64,000 nucleotides of DNA from Streptomyces nigrescens. GTDB taxonomy: Bacteria > Actinomycetota > Actinomycetes > Streptomycetales > Streptomycetaceae. Where the stretch lies: contig AP026073.1 in the NCBI GenBank assembly GCA_024349765.1, positions 434,001-498,000 on the forward strand, written 5' to 3'. Under the pieces are notes generated by a model that was not told the DNA's origin, did not search any database, and worked only from the letters and a program-made list of their open reading frames with translations. Position 1 is the stretch's first letter. Every line of letters begins with the position of its first letter. Below are positions 38,851 to 49,204 of the stretch, in pieces. Both the position numbers and the translations under genes were made by a program.

Positions 38851-39348
38851 ATGGCTAAGCAAAAGGGCAAGGACAAGGATCCCGGGCGCAAGCTCGTGGC
38901 GCAGCACAAGAAGGCGCGGCACGACTACCACATTCTGGACACCTATGAGTGCGGGTTGGTATTGACCGGCACCGAGGTGAAGTCGCTGCGTCAGGGCCGG
39001 GCGTCGCTGGTCGACGGATTCGTCCAGATCGACGGCAACGAGGCCTGGCTGCACAACGTACACATCCCGGAATACGCCCAGGGAACCTGGACGAATCACT
39101 CCGCCCGGCGCAAGCGGAAGCTGCTGATGCACCGCTTCGAGATCGACAAGCTGGAGTCCAAGAGCCAGGAGACCGGCCACACGATCGTGCCGCTGGCCCT
39201 GTATTTCAAGGACGGCCGGGCCAAGGTCGAGATCGCGCTGGCCAAGGGCAAGAAGGAGTACGACAAGCGGCAGACCCTCCGCGAGCAGCAGGACCGCCGC
39301 GAGGCCGACCGCGCGATGTCGGCGGCCCGCCGCCGTCAGCGCGCCTGA
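38851..39348 (+). CDS. smpB: SsrA-binding protein SmpB
   Basis: This 165-aa protein has the SmpB core: [46 protein letters not shown] and the basic C-terminal tail [20 protein letters not shown] that folds in the ribosomal decoding centre. It binds tmRNA and is needed for trans-translation and rescue of stalled ribosomes. It starts 18 nt after the S41 protease stop. Its RNA partner ssrA lies 244 nt downstream, as is common in actinobacteria. Confidence 0.98.
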
Positions 39349-39592: not shown

Positions 39593-39960
39593 GGGGATGA
39601 TCGGTTTCGACAGCGGATGTCGAAGCAGGGGAAGCGAGTCGAGGAAGCGGCCATGATCTCGTAAACCACAGGCCGAAACCAATAATCGCCAACACCAAGC
39701 GCGATTCCTTCGCTCTCGCTGCCTAAGTAGCGACTTGCGAAGTGTCAGCCCGGGGCTGTTCCCGACCCGGATCCTGGCATCAGCTAGGGGACTAAACTTC
39801 TGAACCCGGTCACGGGGTGCAGAAGGAAATCAAACAGTGACTGAGCCCGTCGGAGACTTGTTCGCGTGATCTCCGGGGCTGAGAAAATCGCAGCGAACTG
39901 CACTCGGAGAAGCCCTGTTTCCGCACCGTTGGACGCGGGTTCGATTCCCGCCATCTCCAC
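39593..39960 (+). ncRNA. ssrA: transfer-messenger RNA (tmRNA)
   Basis: The 5' end GGGGATG pairs with CATCTCC at 39952-39958 to form the tRNA-like acceptor stem. GATCGGTTTCGACAG is the universal tmRNA start, and GGTTCGATTCC near the 3' end is the T-arm. The tag reading frame is 39688-39726 and encodes ANTKRDSFALAA followed by TAA, ending in the ALAA that ClpXP recognises. The bases after the discriminator A read CTC, so the terminal CCA seems not to be encoded. With SmpB encoded just upstream it rescues stalled ribosomes. It is followed by a very strong terminator. Confidence 0.97.
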
Positions 39961-39972
39961 TCATCCCATGTG

Positions 39973-40224: not shown

Positions 40225-41544
40225 TCAGCCCAGCTCCCGGTCTCCGATGGCGGAAGAAGCGACGGACGACGGGGTGGCGACGGCGGTCGGCAGGGCAAGG
40301 ATCACGGCCAGCCCGGCGGCCACGGCCGGAACCCCGTACGCGACCCCCGCCCCCGCCACGTGGTCCACGACCCAGCCCCCCGCCGCCGAGCCGGCCGCGA
40401 TACCACCCAGCAGAGCCGTCACGGCGAGCGTCATCCCCTCATTCAACTGAGCCGCCGGAGTGCGGGATTGGATCAGTCCCATCCCGGTGACCATGGTCGG
40501 CGCGGTGGCCATCCCGGCGGCCAGCAGTGCGGCGGCCAGCGCCCCCGGGCGCCCGGTCGACGCCGCGAGGAGGGGCAGCAGCATCAGCACGGCCATCGTG
40601 CCCACGCACACCAGGAACCGCCGCCCGCTCCGGCCCGCCGGACGCAGCACGCCGTAGAGCAGCCCCGCCGCGCACGACCCGGCTGCTTGGAGGGCCAGCA
40701 GCCCGCCCGCGGCGGACCGCATCCCGAGGCCGTCGGCGTAGGCCAAGGTCACGACCTCCATCGATCCGAAGATCGCGCCGGTGCACAGGAACGTGCCGAG
40801 CAGAGGGGGAATGCCCCGCCGCCGCAGCGGAGAGCGGACCCCGCCGGCACGGGCGGCCGCCCGCCCGGCCGCCGGTGGCTCCGTGCGGCGCTGGGCCGCG
40901 AAGAGCAGCACCCCGCTCAGCAGCAGGGTCGCGCCCACCGCCGTGCCCGCCTCGGGTGCGACCGCCGTGCAGAGCAGCGTCGCGAGCACCGGCCCGAGCA
41001 TGAAACACAGCTCGTCCGCGGCCTGTTCGAAGGAGTTGGCGGTGTGCCGGGCAGCCGGGTCGTCGCGGAAGAGGTGTGCCCAGCGGGCACGGGACATCCC
41101 TCCGGTGTTGGGGGTGGTGGCGGTCGCGGCGTACGAGACGAACAACGCCCAGTCGGGCGCACCGAAGCGGACGCACAGCAGCAGCGACAGCGACCCGAGC
41201 ACCGCGAGCGCGGTGGCGGGCACGGCGATCCGGGCCTGGCCGTGGCGGTCGACCATCCGGGCGGTCCATGGCCCGACCAGCGCGGTCGCCGCCAGTCCGG
41301 TCGCGGTGACGGCCCCGGCCAGCGCATAGGAGCCACGCGAGCCGCTGATCATCAGGACGGCGCTGACGCTGAGCATGCCCATGGGCAGACGAGCCAGCAG
41401 ATTGGCGGCGGTGAACGCCCGGGCGCCGGGGACGGCAAAGATCCGCCGGTAAGGAGCGAAGAGCCGAAAGCGCCGGGGACGCCGACGCGGAACCGGCCGT
41501 ACGGGCGGAGCGGTCACCGGACGAGCAGCAAGGAAAAGGATCAC
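40225..41544 (-). CDS. MFS-family transporter
   Basis: From GTG 41544 the protein is about 439 aa (an ATG at 41607 would add 21 residues) with about 12 hydrophobic segments. FTAANLLARLPMGMLSVSAVLMI and ATGLAATALVGPWTARMVDRHGQARI are the N-terminal MFS pattern (the loop 2-3 GxxxDRxGxR-like motif reads MVDRHGQARI). It resembles actinobacterial drug/metabolite efflux proteins. It is divergent from a LysR-type regulator, a common arrangement for an efflux pump and its regulator. The substrate is unknown. No residues specific to peptide export are visible. Confidence 0.88.
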   Translation of the reverse strand: MILFLAARPVTAPPVRPVPRRRPRRFRLFAPYRRIFAVPGARAFTAANLLARLPMGMLSVSAVLMISGSRGSYALAGAVTATGLAATALVGPWTARMVDRHGQARIAVPATALAVLGSLSLLLCVRFGAPDWALFVSYAATATTPNTGGMSRARWAHLFRDDPAARHTANSFEQAADELCFMLGPVLATLLCTAVAPEAGTAVGATLLLSGVLLFAAQRRTEPPAAGRAAARAGGVRSPLRRRGIPPLLGTFLCTGAIFGSMEVVTLAYADGLGMRSAAGGLLALQAAGSCAAGLLYGVLRPAGRSGRRFLVCVGTMAVLMLLPLLAASTGRPGALAAALLAAGMATAPTMVTGMGLIQSRTPAAQLNEGMTLAVTALLGGIAAGSAAGGWVVDHVAGAGVAYGVPAVAAGLAVILALPTAVATPSSVASSAIGDRELG

Positions 41545-41621
41545 GCTCTTACGATCCCGGCCCCTTCCCTCACCCGTCCAACACCTGATCAGAGCCCATT
41601 CACGCACTCACGATGTAGATC

Positions 41622-41845: not shown

Positions 41846-42862
41846 ATGCCGTTCGATATCGATCCGCGACTGCTCCGGGCGTTCACCGCTGTAGCCGAGG
41901 AACTGCACTTCACCCGCGCCGCGGCCCGGCTCTACGTGGCCCAGCAGGCCCTGAGCCGTGACATCCGGCGACTGGAGCGGGAGGTGGGCACGGCACTCTT
42001 CGTACGGACGACCCGCCAGGTCGCCCTCACGGCCGACGGCGAGCGGCTACTGCCGTACGCCCGCCGGGTGTTGAGCGCCCACGAGGACCTGGCGGCGGCC
42101 TTCCGGCCGGTTCCCGAGCGGCCGCTGCTGGTCGATGTCGGGGTGCCGATCGGTACCGCGCACCGGGTGCTGGAGGACGCCAGGGAGCGTGTGCCGGACA
42201 GCTGTGAGCTGGTGGCCCGCTTCCACAGCGGGCTGACGGGGGCGGCGGCCGAGCTGGCGGCCGGGCGGCTCGATGTCTCCTTCGGGCGCTACGCGGGCCT
42301 GCCACCCGCCGTCCGGTCCGGTCTGGCACACCAGCCGGTCCGTCTGGAGCCGATGGCTGTGCTGCTGCGGGAGGACCATCCCCTGGCGGCGCGGCCCGAG
42401 GTTCCGCTCGCGGAGCTGGCCGGCGAGACGCTCTATGCGGCTGCCGGGAATCCGCAGACCGAGGAGTGGACGGAGCTGGCGGCCCGGCTGTTCGCGGGGC
42501 GGGGTATCGCGATGGCCGAGCCGTTCCCGGAGATCGAGGGCTCGCGGGAGTTCGTACGCGTGGTGCGGAAACGGGGGTGGTCGGTACTGGCGAGCGTGGA
42601 GTTCATCGACGTACCGGGGATGGTGCTGCGCCCGGTCGTGGACCCCGTACCCCTGTCACCCCTCTCAATGGTGTGGCGCCGCGACCTGCACCACCCCGGC
42701 CTGACCGCCCTGCGCGCTGCGGTACACGAACTGGCAAGGAAAAACGAATGGTTGACGGTACCGGAGGACGCCTGGCTCCCTCGGGAGGATGCCGCCGCGA
42801 TGGGTGTGAGTGTGGGTGAGGGAGAGGGGGAGGGGGAGGGGGAGGGCGTGCGGGGGCGGTAG
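41846..42862 (+). CDS. LysR-family transcriptional regulator
   Basis: This 338-aa protein has an N-terminal winged helix-turn-helix of LysR type (LLRAFTAVAEELHFTRAAARLYVAQQALSRDIRRLEREVGTALFVRTTRQVALTADG, shown here only as a family description in three contiguous motifs: the AVAEELHFTRAA helix, the QQALSRDIRRLE recognition helix and the LTADG turn). A substrate-binding domain follows from residue 90. It is divergent from the MFS gene, its likely target. The last 15 residues are a Gly-Glu repeat (GEGEGEGEGEG) encoded by a simple-sequence tract, so the C-terminus appears to have been extended or replaced. The 3' end is overlapped in antisense by the broken lasso B1 frame. Confidence 0.9.
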   Translation: MPFDIDPRLLRAFTAVAEELHFTRAAARLYVAQQALSRDIRRLEREVGTALFVRTTRQVALTADGERLLPYARRVLSAHEDLAAAFRPVPERPLLVDVGVPIGTAHRVLEDARERVPDSCELVARFHSGLTGAAAELAAGRLDVSFGRYAGLPPAVRSGLAHQPVRLEPMAVLLREDHPLAARPEVPLAELAGETLYAAAGNPQTEEWTELAARLFAGRGIAMAEPFPEIEGSREFVRVVRKRGWSVLASVEFIDVPGMVLRPVVDPVPLSPLSMVWRRDLHHPGLTALRAAVHELARKNEWLTVPEDAWLPREDAAAMGVSVGEGEGEGEGEGVRGR

Positions 42863-43015
42863 GGGGAGACGTGTCGCGTCCCCGCGTACACGTCGCGCCC
42901 GCGCACACGTCGCGGTCGCGTTCATCTGCCAGTAGCGGCCGGTGCGGGTGGCGAGCAGGACCGTGCCGTCGGCCGTGCGGGTGCTGGTGACGTGCGGGGC
43001 GAGGGCGAGGGTCAT
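42665..43015 (-). pseudogene. truncated lasso-peptide B1 (PqqD-like RRE) gene
   Basis: The first 33 codons from ATG 43015 read TLALAPHVTSTRT, GTVLLATRTGRYWQMNATA, a good match to the start of lasso B1/PqqD-like recognition proteins. Those normally continue YWQLNxTGxxVLxxLxxG. Here the similarity stops at about base 42912 and the frame continues as Arg/Pro/Thr-rich sequence, antisense to the 3' end of the LysR gene, ending at 42665 (116 codons in total). The helices that grip the leader peptide are missing, so the product should not function. The ATG overlaps the cyclase stop by 4 nt (ATGA), the normal C-B1 coupling. Repeats of ACACGTCGCG at 42870-42920 mark the presumed deletion junction. Confidence 0.75.
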
Positions 43016-45420
43016 GGGGTGCCTTGGGCCGGTGCGGGCAGGGGCGGTGCGGGGAACGGCGAGGAGGGGAGCGCCGGTGTGGGGCGGGACGGCGCGGGGA
43101 TGTGCGTCGGGGTGAGCGCGCGGAGCCAGTACTCGGTGGCGAGAGTGGGGTCCAGTGCGCGCAGGGCGTCGGGGTGCGGCTGGAGCGACGTCAGGTGGTG
43201 CCGGAGGGCGGCGGGGCGGATCAGACCGCGTTCGGCGAGGAGGGAGTCGTCGCAGAGCGCGGACAGGGCGCCGCGGTGGGCGCGCAGACCGGCGTGGACC
43301 TCGGTGCTGTGCTCGTTCTTCGTGCCGAGGCCGAGCACCGCCTCGGGCACGATGCCGCGCAGCGCACGGGTCAGCAGTGGCTTGTAGACGCCGGCCCGGG
43401 CGCGGTCGGCGAGTCGGAGGGTGAGCGCCGCGTCGATGACGGCGTTGTCGAGGAACGGCGCCTCGTAGGCGACGCCGTGCGGGGCGGTGAGGGCGAGGGC
43501 GCCGCGGACGATCTCCCCGGAGCGGAGGGCGGCGCGCACGATGTCGTGCTGGCAGCGCAGCGGCGCGAACGGTTCGGGTGCCTCGGCGGCGGCCTCGCGC
43601 AGCAGCCGGCGGACGGTGGCGACGGCGTCCGGATGCGCCCACGGCGGCAGGCTGGACAGGACCTCCCAGTCGGCGCCGCAGGTCCGGGGATCGCCGCCGG
43701 CGGTCACCCGGGAGGCGCTGCCGGCCAGCCAGCGCGGATACGGGCGGCCGCCCAGCAGCGTGCGCAGGGTCTCGGAGGTCTTCCAGCGGCAGAGGTGGTG
43801 TGCCGTCCAGGCGCGCTGGGCGGCGGTGCGCAGGTCGCTGCGGACAAGGGAGTTGAGGGCGGCGGGGCGGTGGGAGAAGAGTTCGTCGCCGCCGACGCCG
43901 ACGAGGTGCAGCCGGGAGCCGCGGGCGGCGACGAGACGGGCCTGGTGGGCGATCCGGGCGGCTTCCCGGAAGAGGGCGAGCGGGGCGGCCGGGTCGGTGG
44001 CGGTGGGGTGCAGGGGGTGGTGGGGCGGGGTGTACCAGGTGGGGGCGTCGGCGTAGGGGAGGGAGAGGTGCTCGCCGGCCTGGGGTCGTGACCGCGACGC
44101 CGGGCCGTTGCCCGCACCCGCGCCCCTGGCCCTGCCACTGCCACTGCCACTGCCCCTGCCCCCGCCCCTGTTCCCGCTCCCGCCCCTGCCCCCGCTTCCG
44201 CCGCTGTGCCTGCTTCCGCCCCCGTTCCCGCCCGTACCCGCTCCGTTGGTCCTGTGCGCGACCGCCCCGCTGCGCTCGCCCTCGTTCTTGGCCTGGACCT
44301 GGCCCTGGCCCTGACCCTTGCCCTTCTCCTTGCCCTTGCCGTGGGCCGTGTCCCCCACTGAGCGTGGGTCCCCGCCGGGTCCGGGGCCCGGGCCGGCCGC
44401 CTGTTCGCGTTGGCGTTCGGCGGCGCTCAGGTGGGCTGCGCTGCGGGCGCTCCACATGGTGTCGTCGTTGCCGGGGTCGCGGGACACCCAGGACGTGGTG
44501 ATCAGCCGGACGTCCTCCTGGGCGGCGAGGAAGCACAGGCCGGTGGAGTCGGTGCCGCCGGAGAGGTCGGCGCTGAGGGTGGGACGGCCCAGGGCCCCGT
44601 ACGCGCTTCCATTCGTGGTCTCGCCCGTATCGGTCTGCTCGATCCGTTCGTTCTGCCCGTTCTGTTCGTTGATCCTCTCCTGTTCGTTCTGCCGTCGGGC
44701 GCGGTGTGTACGGGCCGCCACGGCGTCGCTGAGGGCCTGGCGTACGGTCTCGGCGGCGCGCTCCAGGGGGACGTCCGGTTCCGGTGGCTGCCACCAACGG
44801 GCCACGGAGGGCTGCCCGTTGGCGTCCACGGTGAGGTGGTGGCCCGGCGGGACGGCCGGTACCGCGCGCCACAGCGGGCGCAGGGCGAGCGGGAGCGGGG
44901 CGAACGGGAACAGCAGGCGCAGCGCGAGGGATTCCTCGTCGAGCAGGCCGGTGCCGGGGGCGCCGGGCGGCAGTCCGCCGGTGGCCGCGCTGCGGGCGAG
45001 CGCCGCCAGGTCCTGGGGCCGGTTGCCGGCGACGGTGATGCCGCCGATCCGGGCGTGATGGAGCTGGTGGACGGTCGCGAGGTCGCCCTGGCAGCGCAGG
45101 TCGGGGCCGATGGCGGCCAGGAGTGCGTAGCTGCCGGGGAGTTGGCGGGTGCGCCGGGCGATGCCGTCCAGGCCGTCGGGGCCGTGCAGCAGCCGGGCCA
45201 GGGTGTCCGGGTGGGCGGAGGTGGTGCCGAGCAGGACGGCGCGGCGTGGGCCCGCCTCCGCCGTGAGGATCTGGTCGGCCGACCACCGGCCCACGATCCA
45301 GGGGCGGCCCGAGGGGTGGCGGAGGATCTGGACGGGCGGTCCGGCGGGCAGCTGCCGGCGGAGGGCGTCGGTTGCGGGGTGGTCGGGGAAGACGAGGAAG
45401 TCCACGGGATACCTGTCCAT
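43012..45420 (-). CDS. lasso peptide macrolactam synthetase (asparagine-synthase-like, protein C)
   Basis: The 802-aa protein has the lasso cyclase layout. An N-terminal glutaminase-like domain without the catalytic Cys1 (FLVFPDHPATDALRR, LPGSYALLAAIGPDLRC) is followed by an AsnB-type ATP-binding domain with the pyrophosphate loop DLSGGTDS (SGGTDS 287-292). The C-terminal part has YEAPFLDNAVIDAAL, VYKPLLTRALRGIVPEAVLG and TKNEHSTEVHAGLR. It adenylates the Asp side chain of the precursor core and joins it to the Gly1 amine. It is about 200 aa longer than typical: low-complexity insertions lie at about 242-275 (Gln/Asn/Glu-rich) and 338-447 (Gly/Lys/Gln then Gly/Ser/Arg). The key motifs remain intact. 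No clear Shine-Dalgarno precedes the ATG. Confidence 0.92.
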   Translation of the reverse strand: MDRYPVDFLVFPDHPATDALRRQLPAGPPVQILRHPSGRPWIVGRWSADQILTAEAGPRRAVLLGTTSAHPDTLARLLHGPDGLDGIARRTRQLPGSYALLAAIGPDLRCQGDLATVHQLHHARIGGITVAGNRPQDLAALARSAATGGLPPGAPGTGLLDEESLALRLLFPFAPLPLALRPLWRAVPAVPPGHHLTVDANGQPSVARWWQPPEPDVPLERAAETVRQALSDAVAARTHRARRQNEQERINEQNGQNERIEQTDTGETTNGSAYGALGRPTLSADLSGGTDSTGLCFLAAQEDVRLITTSWVSRDPGNDDTMWSARSAAHLSAAERQREQAAGPGPGPGGDPRSVGDTAHGKGKEKGKGQGQGQVQAKNEGERSGAVAHRTNGAGTGGNGGGSRHSGGSGGRGGSGNRGGGRGSGSGSGRARGAGAGNGPASRSRPQAGEHLSLPYADAPTWYTPPHHPLHPTATDPAAPLALFREAARIAHQARLVAARGSRLHLVGVGGDELFSHRPAALNSLVRSDLRTAAQRAWTAHHLCRWKTSETLRTLLGGRPYPRWLAGSASRVTAGGDPRTCGADWEVLSSLPPWAHPDAVATVRRLLREAAAEAPEPFAPLRCQHDIVRAALRSGEIVRGALALTAPHGVAYEAPFLDNAVIDAALTLRLADRARAGVYKPLLTRALRGIVPEAVLGLGTKNEHSTEVHAGLRAHRGALSALCDDSLLAERGLIRPAALRHHLTSLQPHPDALRALDPTLATEYWLRALTPTHIPAPSRPTPALPSSPFPAPPLPAPAQGTP

Positions 45421-45501: not shown

Positions 45502-45651
45502 TCACCACCCGAAGAAGCCGGCCCAGCCGTCCCAGTGGTAGCCCGTGAACCCGAGCGTCAGCTCGGTGAAGTCGCCCACCTCGACGAGCTGCGGCGCCTC
45601 GTAGTCGGTGGCGGTGTCGGCAGCGGCCGGCACCTCCTGCGTGTCCTGCAT
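45502..45651 (-). CDS. lasso peptide precursor (protein A)
   Basis: The gene encodes 49 residues and has a GGGAG 5 nt upstream of ATG 45651. The leader shows the exact lasso recognition pattern Tyr17-x2-Pro20-x-Leu22-x3-Gly26-x-Phe28-x3-Thr32 (YEAPQLVEVGDFTELTL). Thr32 is the conserved position -2. The predicted core is GFTGYHWDGWAGFFGW: Gly1 would be linked to the side chain of Asp8 to form an 8-residue ring with an 8-residue tail rich in Trp and Phe for threading. There is no Cys, so a class II lasso is expected, with a calculated monoisotopic mass of about 1871.78 Da after ring closure. The cyclase gene is directly downstream. B1 is broken and B2 is absent here. Confidence 0.92.
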   Translation of the reverse strand: MQDTQEVPAAADTATDYEAPQLVEVGDFTELTLGFTGYHWDGWAGFFGW

Positions 45652-45974: not shown

Positions 45975-47534
45975 ATGACGGCCGAGGCCGCGGCAGGCAC
46001 CCGTAGCGACAGCAGCAGTGAAATCAGCGACGACAGCCCTGACGAAAACCGAACGGACCGCACGACCTCCACCCCGACGTCCGCCCCGACGTCCACCCCG
46101 ACGTCCGCCCCGACGTCCGGTGGCTCCACGCCCGCCGGCCCCACGCCCGGCGGCCGTACGCGGCGGGGCGGGCGGTGGATCGAGCGGTGGGAGCCCGAGG
46201 ACGAGACGTTCTGGGCGGAGACCGGGGCGCGGGTCGCCCGGCGGAACCTGGCCTTCTCCGTACTGTCCGAGCACATCGGCTTCTCCATCTGGAGCCTGTG
46301 GTCGGTGATGGTGCTGTTCATGGGGCCGGAGTACGGATTCGATCCGGCCGGCAAGTTCTTCCTGGTGGCGATGCCGACCCTGGTGGGCGGGGTGCTGCGG
46401 GTGCCGTACACCTTCGCGGTGGCGCGGTTCGGCGGACGCAACTGGACGGTGATCAGCGCGCTGATGCTGCTGGTGCCGGCGACGGCGGCCGCGGTGGTGA
46501 TGAAGCCGGGTACCTCCTACACCACGTTCCTGGTGATCGCGGCGCTCGCGGGCGTCGGCGGCGGCAACTTCGCCTCCTCGATGACGAACATCAACTCCTT
46601 CTACCCCCTGCGGAAGAAGGGCTGGGCGCTGGGGCTGAACGCCGGCGGCGGCAACATCGGCGTCCCCGTGATCCAGCTGCTGGGGCTGCTGGTGATCGGT
46701 ACGGCCGGGGCCGCGCAGCCGCGGCTGGTGCTCGCCGTCTACCTGCCGCTGATCGTGGTCGCGGCGGTGCTCGCGGCGCTGTTCATGGACAACCTGGCGC
46801 CGGTGCGGAACGACACCGGAGCGGCCCTGGACGCCGCCCGGGAGCCGCACACCTGGGTGATGTCGGTGCTGTACATCGGCACGTTCGGGTCGTTCATCGG
46901 CTACAGCTTCGCCTTCGGGCTGGTGCTGCAGAACCAGTTCGCGCGCACGCCCCTCCAGGCGGCGTCGCTGACGTTCATCGGGCCGCTGCTGGGGTCGCTG
47001 GTGCGGCCGGTCGGCGGCCGGCTGGCGGACCGGTTCGGCGGCGCCCGGATCACCCTGGGCAACTTCCTGGCGATGGCCCTGGCCACCGGGGTGGTCATCT
47101 ACGCGTCGGCGGTGCGGTCGCTGCCGGTGTTCCTCGTCGGCTTCATCGCGCTGTTCGTGCTGACCGGGCTCGGCAACGGCTCCACGTACAAGATGATCCC
47201 GGGGATCTTCCAGGCGCAGGCGGTCCGGCGCGGGCTGACCGGGGAGGCGGCCGAGGCCAGCGGGCGGCGGCTGTCGGGGGCGGCGATGGGGCTGATCGGC
47301 GCGGTCGGCGCGCTCGGCGGGCTGGCCATCAACCTCGCCTTCCGGCAGTCGTTCCTGGCCACCGGGTCGGGTACGCCGGCGTTCGTGTCGTTCCTGGTCT
47401 GCTACGCGGTGTGCACCGTGGTGACCTGGGCCGTATACCTGCGGCCGGCGGCGCGCGCACGGCGTACGGAGCGGGCGGGCGCGGGTGCCACGGCCGGGGA
47501 GGCGGAGCGGCGGCCGGTCCACGCCGAAGTGTGA
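45975..47534 (+). CDS. narK: nitrate/nitrite transporter (NarK-type MFS)
   Basis: The 519-aa protein has about 75 Thr/Ser/Pro-rich N-terminal residues (with a TSAPTSTPTSAPTS repeat) and then a 12-helix MFS domain. It has the nitrate signature in the fifth helix, GGGNFASSMTNINSFYPLRKKGWALGLNAGGGN, and FAFGLVLQNQF. It should exchange or import nitrate and nitrite. ATG 45975 has GGGAGG 4 nt upstream. It lies directly before the HemD/winged-helix regulator gene, the narK-nnaR pairing known from S. coelicolor nitrogen metabolism. Confidence 0.93.
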   Translation: MTAEAAAGTRSDSSSEISDDSPDENRTDRTTSTPTSAPTSTPTSAPTSGGSTPAGPTPGGRTRRGGRWIERWEPEDETFWAETGARVARRNLAFSVLSEHIGFSIWSLWSVMVLFMGPEYGFDPAGKFFLVAMPTLVGGVLRVPYTFAVARFGGRNWTVISALMLLVPATAAAVVMKPGTSYTTFLVIAALAGVGGGNFASSMTNINSFYPLRKKGWALGLNAGGGNIGVPVIQLLGLLVIGTAGAAQPRLVLAVYLPLIVVAAVLAALFMDNLAPVRNDTGAALDAAREPHTWVMSVLYIGTFGSFIGYSFAFGLVLQNQFARTPLQAASLTFIGPLLGSLVRPVGGRLADRFGGARITLGNFLAMALATGVVIYASAVRSLPVFLVGFIALFVLTGLGNGSTYKMIPGIFQAQAVRRGLTGEAAEASGRRLSGAAMGLIGAVGALGGLAINLAFRQSFLATGSGTPAFVSFLVCYAVCTVVTWAVYLRPAARARRTERAGAGATAGEAERRPVHAEV

Positions 47535-47725
47535 GGCGGCGTGGGGCTGGTGTGCGGCCGGTTGCCCGTGGTGGCCGCGCAGCGGCGTAACCCGGGGGAA
47601 ATACTGGAGGACCGGGCCTGTCATGTGGTGTCGGCAGGCTGGACACCAGTGGCTTCCGGACCTCGACACCCCGGGACTTGGCTCCTCGGACCCGGGGAGC
47701 CGGAGATCCGGGGAGGTCGGGATCT

Positions 47726-47751
47726 CGGTATCCCGGGGTCCCGGGATACCG
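47726..47751. terminator. palindrome between narK and nnaR
   Basis: GGTATCCCGGG (47727-47737) and its inverse complement CCCGGGATACC (47740-47750) are almost contiguous. The pair could end the narK transcript or be a binding site just upstream of nnaR. The local sequence is also rich in CCCGGG and GGGATC repeats. Confidence 0.5.
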
Positions 47752-47791
47752 GAGCTCACCCGTCGCCCGGGCCGCGGCGGCGGGGAGCGCC

Positions 47792-49204
47792 ATGCAGCAC
47801 AACCACTCTGGGCGGAGCGGGACGACCATGCACGATCAGCAGCAGCAACAGGAGCACGGCGAGCGGGAGACGCGGACGGCACCCGCCACCGGGCCGGCAG
47901 CGGGACCCCAGGAACCCCAGGAACCCCAGGAACCCCAGGAACCCCAGGGAACCCACGGAGCCCCGGGGACCCGGGAAGCCGCGCCGGAACCCGGGCCGGG
48001 AACCGGACCAGTGACCGCGCCGGGAACCGGGCCGGAAGCCGGGCCCGGGGACGGTTCCGGGCCCGGTGCTGCCCCCGTGCGGCCGCTGGACGGCTTCACC
48101 GTCGGCGTGACCGCGGCCCGGCGGGCCGAGGAGCTCGGTGCCCTGCTGGAGCGGCGCGGCGCGCAGGTGATGCACGCGCCCGCGCTGCGCATCGTGCCGC
48201 TGCCGGACGACACCGAACTGCTCGCGGTGACCCGGGCGCTGATCGGTCATGCGCCGGACGTCGTCGTGGCCACCACGGCCATCGGGTTCCGCGGCTGGAT
48301 CGAGGCCGCGGAGGGCTGGGGGCTGGGCGAGGCGCTGCTGGACCGGCTGACCGGCGTCGAACTGCTCGCGCGCGGCCCGAAGGTACGGGGCGCGATCCGG
48401 GCCGCCGGGCTCACCGAGAAGTGGTCCCCGGCCTCGGAGTCGATGGCCGAGGTGCTGGACCGGCTGCTGGCGGAGGGGGTGTCCGGGCGGCGGGTGGCCG
48501 TACAGCTGCACGGCGAGCCGCTGCCCGGGTTCGTGGAGGCGCTGCGGGCCGGCGGCGCGGAGGTGATCGGCGTCCCGGTGTACCGCTGGATGCCGCCGGA
48601 GGACCTCGGTCCGGTCGACCGGCTGCTGGACGCGGTGGTCGGCGGCGGCCTGGACGCGGTGACGTTCACCAGCGCACCCGCCGCCGCGTCGCTGCTGCGC
48701 CGGGCCGAGGAGCGCGGCATCCGGGAGGAGGTGCTGGCGGCGCTGCGGCAGGGCGTGCTGCCCGTGTGTGTGGGGCCGGTGACCGCGCTGCCCCTGGAGG
48801 CCGAGGACGTGCCCACGCTCCAGCCGGAGCGCTTCCGGCTGGGGCCGCTGGTGCAGCTGCTGTGCCGCGAACTGCCCGGGCGGGCGCGGCCGTTGCCGGT
48901 GGCCGGGCGGCGGCTGGAGATCCGCGGGCACGCGGTCGTGGTGGACGGCGCGCTGCGGCCGGTGCCGCCGGCCGGCATGGCGTTGCTGCGGGCGCTGGCC
49001 CGCCGCCCCGGCTGGGTCGTCTCCCGCGCCGAGCTGCTGCGGGTGCTGCCGGGGTCGGGGCGGGACGAGCACGCCGTGGAGACCGCGATGGCCCGGCTGC
49101 GGGTGGCCCTGGGCGCGCCGAAGCTGATCCAGACCGTGGTCAAGCGGGGGTACCGGCTGTCGTTGGACCCGCACGCCGACACGGACAAGTACGGCGCGGC
49201 GTAA
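47792..49204 (+). CDS. nnaR: uroporphyrinogen-III-synthase-like / winged-helix transcriptional regulator
   Basis: From ATG 47792 (GGGGAG 5-6 nt upstream; ATG 47828 is the alternative) the protein is 470 aa. The first 95 residues are low-complexity, with four Gln-Glu-Pro triplets in a row. A HemD-fold domain follows (FTVGVTAARRAEELGALLERRGAQVMHAP as a single motif region, AVTFTSAPAAASLL, VCVGPVTA). A C-terminal OmpR-type winged helix follows (RPGWVVSRAELLRVLPG, HAVETAMARLRVALG, IQTVVKRGYRLSL). Fusions of this kind are NnaR in S. coelicolor, which activates nitrate/nitrite assimilation genes together with GlnR. Position after narK supports this. It is probably a regulator rather than the main haem enzyme. 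Confidence 0.9.
   Translation: MQHNHSGRSGTTMHDQQQQQEHGERETRTAPATGPAAGPQEPQEPQEPQEPQGTHGAPGTREAAPEPGPGTGPVTAPGTGPEAGPGDGSGPGAAPVRPLDGFTVGVTAARRAEELGALLERRGAQVMHAPALRIVPLPDDTELLAVTRALIGHAPDVVVATTAIGFRGWIEAAEGWGLGEALLDRLTGVELLARGPKVRGAIRAAGLTEKWSPASESMAEVLDRLLAEGVSGRRVAVQLHGEPLPGFVEALRAGGAEVIGVPVYRWMPPEDLGPVDRLLDAVVGGGLDAVTFTSAPAAASLLRRAEERGIREEVLAALRQGVLPVCVGPVTALPLEAEDVPTLQPERFRLGPLVQLLCRELPGRARPLPVAGRRLEIRGHAVVVDGALRPVPPAGMALLRALARRPGWVVSRAELLRVLPGSGRDEHAVETAMARLRVALGAPKLIQTVVKRGYRLSLDPHADTDKYGAA

Follow-up and report, generated by a model that had tools for sequence, protein, structure and literature searches.

The stretch of DNA analysed here (the window, 64,000 nucleotides of Streptomyces nigrescens) carries on its minus strand a lasso peptide precursor gene (A), a cyclase gene (C) and the beginning of a B1 gene, set among neighbours that are syntenic in relatives. 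The features of the locus are:

40225-41607, minus strand: MFS transporter (PF07690), a syntenic neighbour on the far side of the LysR gene
41846-42862, plus strand: LysR-type regulator (PF00126, PF03466), intact, convergent with the cluster and syntenic in relatives
42665-43015, minus strand: truncated B1, with about 36 B1-like codons (43015-42909) and then unrelated sequence up to the stop
42869-42908, no strand assigned: junction filler of about 40 bp, delimited by comparison with S. endophytica (L052)
43012-45420, minus strand: cyclase C, 802 amino acids, with long low-complexity insertions (PF00733, 85.6 bits; NF033561, 199.7 bits)
45651-45502, minus strand: lasso precursor A, with leader (45651-45553), core (45552-45505) and stop (45504-45502), the cleavage site being placed by the T-2 pattern
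45975-47534, plus strand: MFS transporter (PF07690, 80.3 bits), a syntenic neighbour divergent from the precursor gene
47678-49204, plus strand: HemD-domain protein with a C-terminal DNA-binding domain (PF02602, PF00486), a syntenic neighbour

The MFS transporter divergent from the precursor gene is presumably NarK-like. Close to the site, the window also holds smpB (38851-39348) and the gene for tmRNA (39593-39962).

The initial annotation had described a lasso precursor at 45502-45651 with six conserved leader positions, a single possible ring between Gly1 and Asp8, an unusually aromatic core with an aromatic tail, a predicted mass near 1871.78 and no resemblance to a characterised compound that it could recognise. 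This description holds up. The open reading frame at these coordinates, on the minus strand, encodes 49 residues, MQDTQEVPAAADTATDYEAPQLVEVGDFTELTLGFTGYHWDGWAGFFGW, which we divide into the leader MQDTQEVPAAADTATDYEAPQLVEVGDFTELTL and the core GFTGYHWDGWAGFFGW. Residues 17-35 match the leader model NF033521 (lasso_leader_L3) with 37.6 bits (cut-off 19, E 1.3e-9), and Y-17, P-14, L-12, G-8, F-6 and T-2 are all there. As a search of the whole genome (9.33 Mb) with this model finds two further sites besides precursor A, the match is not a chance one. The core begins with Gly1, contains no cysteine and has Asp8 as its sole acidic residue, which leaves Gly1-Asp8 as the only possible ring; the ring itself is a prediction, and the computed mass of the lasso is 1871.784. 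With three Trp, three Phe and one Tyr among its 16 residues, the core is among the more aromatic of those compared, sharing the top aromatic fraction of 0.44 with two others in a set of 20 hand-picked cores. The string GFTGYHWDGW was not found in the searched literature, within the reach of a narrow text search, and precursor A had no match among 72,556 plasmid records. A codon pattern for YHWDGWAG occurs in 2 of 392 sampled genomes of the genus, those of S. nigrescens and of NRRL S-337, and precursor-like matches were found in 21 of 295 in the genus sample. Judged by its sequence, precursor A appears to be a genuine class II lasso precursor, with a presumably threaded product and a core that is new relative to the searched literature.

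Two known systems can be compared with precursor A and its cyclase. RES-701, whose ring comprises nine residues and whose core we take to be strongly aromatic, differs from the window peptide in its core sequence. PMC7280977 gives RES-701 a class II core of 16 residues with a C-terminal tryptophan, as in the window, and a fragment of the RES-701 core was not found in the text of that paper. The likeness to albusnodin consists of a weak leader match (NF033525, 21.4 bits, below the cut-off of 30) and of the best cyclase model, which is of the albusnodin/ikarugamycin type; however, window precursor and cyclase both stay below the model cut-offs.

The locus departs from a complete cluster downstream of the cyclase gene. 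The stop codon of C and the ATG of B1 at 43015 overlap. Of the 78 positions of the model NF033530, the window B1 matches 1-33 and no more (42.1 bits against a cut-off of 70), whereas the B1 of NRRL S-337 matches positions 1-77 (90.7 bits). Beyond codon 36 the frame reads on past the 3' end of the convergent LysR gene. We considered that B1 might continue in another frame and rejected the idea, since the listed frames after codon 36 hold no RRE continuation and the stretch is absent by comparison with L052. In L052, B1 is followed by a B2 of 145 amino acids (NF033537, 122.5 bits) that ends about 50 bp before the LysR gene. The window is collinear with L052 for about 107 nt of B1, continues with the filler of about 40 bp, and resumes beside the LysR stop, leaving about 629 bp of L052 (the end of B1 and all of B2) without a counterpart. 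A 28-base piece of the filler occurs once in the window. Neither PF13471 (B2) nor PF05402 (B1) has a match in the 64-kb window; elsewhere in the genome there are three matches to the former and two to the latter. The initial annotation had overlooked the enzyme genes, namely the truncation of B1 beside the cyclase and the absence of B2. Its view of a working system, with a product to be sought in the S. nigrescens strain, is unsupported, as the locus has neither a complete B1 nor a B2.

The cyclase next to the precursor is whole. Its best model is NF033561, which it matches below the cut-off of 300, as do the cyclases of whole clusters (260.2 bits for L040 and 246.9 bits for L047). It retains the SGGxDS motif, the YKP lysine and the TK lysine, residues to which we assign a catalytic role. 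We compared these motifs across 56 loci and set 8 lone or degraded cyclases apart; in the 48 others, which count NRRL S-337 and S. rimosus twice each and include some loci without a B1/B2 match, the YKP lysine is found in 47 of 47 readable sequences and the TK lysine in 45 of 47. A search of the cyclase profile against solved structures gave no sequence match at E 1e-3. The low-complexity insertions in cyclases of the window lineage vary in length among close relatives; similar insertions occur in NBRC 110611 and G137, while the remaining syntenic cyclases are almost free of them.

Candidate signs of decay in the cyclase did not stand. Four changes in and before the segment TKGEHSAEVY might indicate a decayed active site, but with the exception of the TK lysine this segment is variable in the 48 other loci, and only the Asn after TK is unseen among the 47 readable ones. 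Relaxed selection was another candidate, and the codon-position counts for the whole gene (11, 17 and 21 on the window branch) only looked relaxed; after removal of the low-complexity parts and of the out-of-frame stretch of L052, they are 7, 6 and 15. In these conserved parts, the ratio of changes at the first two codon positions to those at the third is 13:15 on the window branch and 76:106 for a pair from whole clusters (p 0.39). Between the window and NRRL S-337 cyclases, dN/dS is 0.35 over the 617 codons common to the outgroups (0.53 with the low-complexity parts), compared with 0.31 for the L053 and L054 cyclases and 0.21 for the MFS neighbour. The short genes give 0.65 (A, 49 codons) and 1.08 (B1, 34 codons). 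On these measures, A and C show no clear decay. As C bears no clear trace of the loss of B1 and B2, either this loss happened recently or A and C remain in use.

The same chromosomal site can be followed in relatives. We defined it by the divergent MFS gene and the HemD-like gene adjoining a cyclase gene, and our sample consists of at least 15 distinct loci with a cyclase at the site: those of the window, NRRL S-337, S. endophytica, CB02923, S. rimosus, G090, G036, G137, S. albospinus, CT34, CB02959, MspMP-M5, S. rhizoryzae, S. noursei and NBRC 110611. In 4 of the 15 loci found (CB02923, S. rimosus, G090 and G036), A, C, B1 and B2 are all apparently full length; their cores differ (GFHGHHWDTFGGRGHGWW, GYTGELSDSWGGMHSTFW, GLVGWHHDAFGGHFWQE and GFHGELSDSWGGLHSTFW), and all have Gly1 and Asp8. 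The other 11 of 15 are eroded or damaged, and the cyclase stands alone in 7. Queries with B1 and B2 from several clusters against these seven C-only loci gave as best match a 42-residue piece with E 0.096, in L056 and far from the cyclase. A pattern search revealed no precursor at the seven loci. For all of them but S. rhizoryzae, the frames upstream of the cyclase were also inspected by eye, again without finding one; in NBRC 110611 this region includes a stretch of N. In G137, B2 is kept, B1 and A are absent, and the cyclase motifs are degraded. The window locus is one of several erosions of this site in Streptomyces.

Two of the relatives are particularly close. The locus of NRRL S-337 (L039/L051) is syntenic, with a core, GYTGYHWDGWAGFFGW, identical at 15 of 16 positions and a cyclase that is 87% identical. 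It differs from the window in that A, C and B1 are whole and B2 is present, with a frame break about 137 bp from the contig end; no description of its product as a compound was found in the searched literature. S. endophytica HNM0140 (L052) is also syntenic and, judged by its neighbours, the closest locus among the matches listed (96% identity for LysR and 99.7% for the divergent MFS transporter in the aligned parts). Its core, GFSGYHWDGWAGRAGFFGW, has one substitution and a three-residue insertion relative to that of the window. L052 differs in having a whole B2 and a nearly whole B1 with a shifted end, and as deposited, about 49 of its cyclase codons are out of frame. The frame breaks in these two deposits may be sequencing errors.

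Three lone syntenic cyclases have Arg in place of the TK lysine: L057:10007-11905 (CB02959), L058:10007-11905 (MspMP-M5) and L060:10007-11902 (S. noursei), the last of which also lacks the YKP lysine and reads SGC for SGG. Their pairwise dN/dS values are 0.23-0.26, with a roughly threefold excess of third-position changes, and from these sequences they were possibly kept for another role. The other lone cyclases, compared as L055 with L056 and in pairs with L059, give 0.43-0.55.

Elsewhere in the S. nigrescens genome, more than 3 Mb away, lie both other B1-B2 pairs found with the Pfam models. One belongs to a complete cluster (L040, C1 at about 3.56 Mb) with the core GFIGWGKDIFGHYGG, which we take to be of ulleungdin type from the agreement in mass and from the sequence. 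The [M+2H]2+ computed for this core, 796.8859, equals the calculated value for ulleungdin printed in PMC7955054. Ulleungdin and the window share a class II actinobacterial cluster with split B, a Gly1-Asp8 ring and a similar leader, whereas the core differs and the ulleungdin-type cluster is complete. The second pair, in the L041 cluster at about 4.03 Mb, accompanies the core LLNSSGNDRLILSKN, presumably citrulassin-like. A third B2-like protein (Transglut_core3) is encoded in a 258-aa frame at L003:1501-1785, minus strand (G000:C2:998125-998409), and no PqqD-family match was found near it in the genome search.

Stand-alone precursors of the window core family occur in S. rimosus (L043, at about 9671, minus strand) and in G036 (L046, at about 9749, plus strand; L042, at 3907 and 9585, both plus strand). 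No cyclase, B1 or B2 match better than E 0.05 was found near any of the three loci, in flanks of mostly about 9 kb (4 kb on one side for one of them). L043 and L046 lie in the same gene setting, with neighbours that by eye resemble carotenoid genes.

Together, our data make it likely that the window contains a class II lasso cluster of the order A-C-B1-B2 that was recently inactivated, by a deletion seen in the assembly. In its working form, B1 would bind the leader through YxxPxL...G.F, B2 would cut after Thr-2/Leu-1, and C would activate Asp8 with ATP and link it to Gly1, closing the ring around the threaded aromatic tail. The deletion, with its filler of about 40 bp, would have taken away B2 in full, together with roughly 49 codons from the end of B1. 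Maturation would then halt before leader removal because of this loss, and no lasso peptide would be expected from the locus alone. The loss would be recent on the window branch, because the reading frames of A and C are still whole.

The same wholeness of A and C can be turned against inactivation, as genes that show no clear decay may still be used, and so can the intact ulleungdin-type B1 and B2 of the same genome, with the similar leader of that cluster. These B genes, about 3.08 Mb away, could act in trans while the local cyclase closes the ring, so that the peptide would still be made. We consider this unlikely, and equally the naturally split pathway that it implies, in which one B1/B2 pair matures two different lasso cores in one strain. 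Maturation of the window precursor at a distance is plausible. Both B proteins of the ulleungdin-type cluster are whole (110.1 bits for B1, 124.9 bits for B2), B1 being identical to that of NRRL S-337 at 40 of 83 positions and B2 to that of L052 at 84 of 142, and the two leaders have Y..P.LVEVG.F....TLG in common. According to PMC13381572, the actinobacterial FusB1 binds foreign leaders, having bound two foreign precursors in pull-downs, whereas two Bacillota recognition proteins discriminated between precursors. Maturation in trans is also favoured by the precursors of this core family that stand alone in S. rimosus and G036, where no lasso enzyme turned up in the surrounding 9 kb or so, but each of these genomes contains a complete cluster of that family as well. 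Moreover, no direct evidence for it comes from the window locus, none of the 14 other loci combines the presence of A and C with the absence of both B genes, and erosion of the site is common.

An error of assembly or sequencing in a strain whose cluster is whole would also account for the missing genes, and the possibly erroneous frame breaks in the deposited loci of relatives lend this some weight. Yet the window contains no N, the locus lies inside a contig of 8.25 Mb, and the junction has 40 bp of its own that are absent from L052, which makes such an error very improbable. Least credible to us is that the cyclase, or A and C together, now serve another role without B1 and B2. Such a role is possible in CB02959, MspMP-M5 and S. 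noursei, whose lone cyclases show a low dN/dS and a threefold third-position excess despite the Arg for the TK lysine, but the window cyclase retains both lysines and adjoins a whole precursor, and the higher dN/dS of the other lone-cyclase pairs does not fit. We therefore return to recent inactivation as the preferred reading.

If the cluster was inactivated, the peptide is probably no longer made in the S. nigrescens strain, barring helpers from another cluster. Mining from the precursor alone would thus lead to a search for a peptide that the strain is probably unable to produce. More promising are relatives with a whole cluster, or the B1/B2 pair found elsewhere in the S. nigrescens genome. 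The site presents a biosynthetic cluster caught in the middle of erosion, with at least 15 orthologous loci that range from whole through partial clusters to lone cyclases, some of which have lost a catalytic lysine and yet look selected. Should maturation in trans prove true after all, the locus would test, in a natural host, how far lasso recognition proteins reach to foreign leaders.
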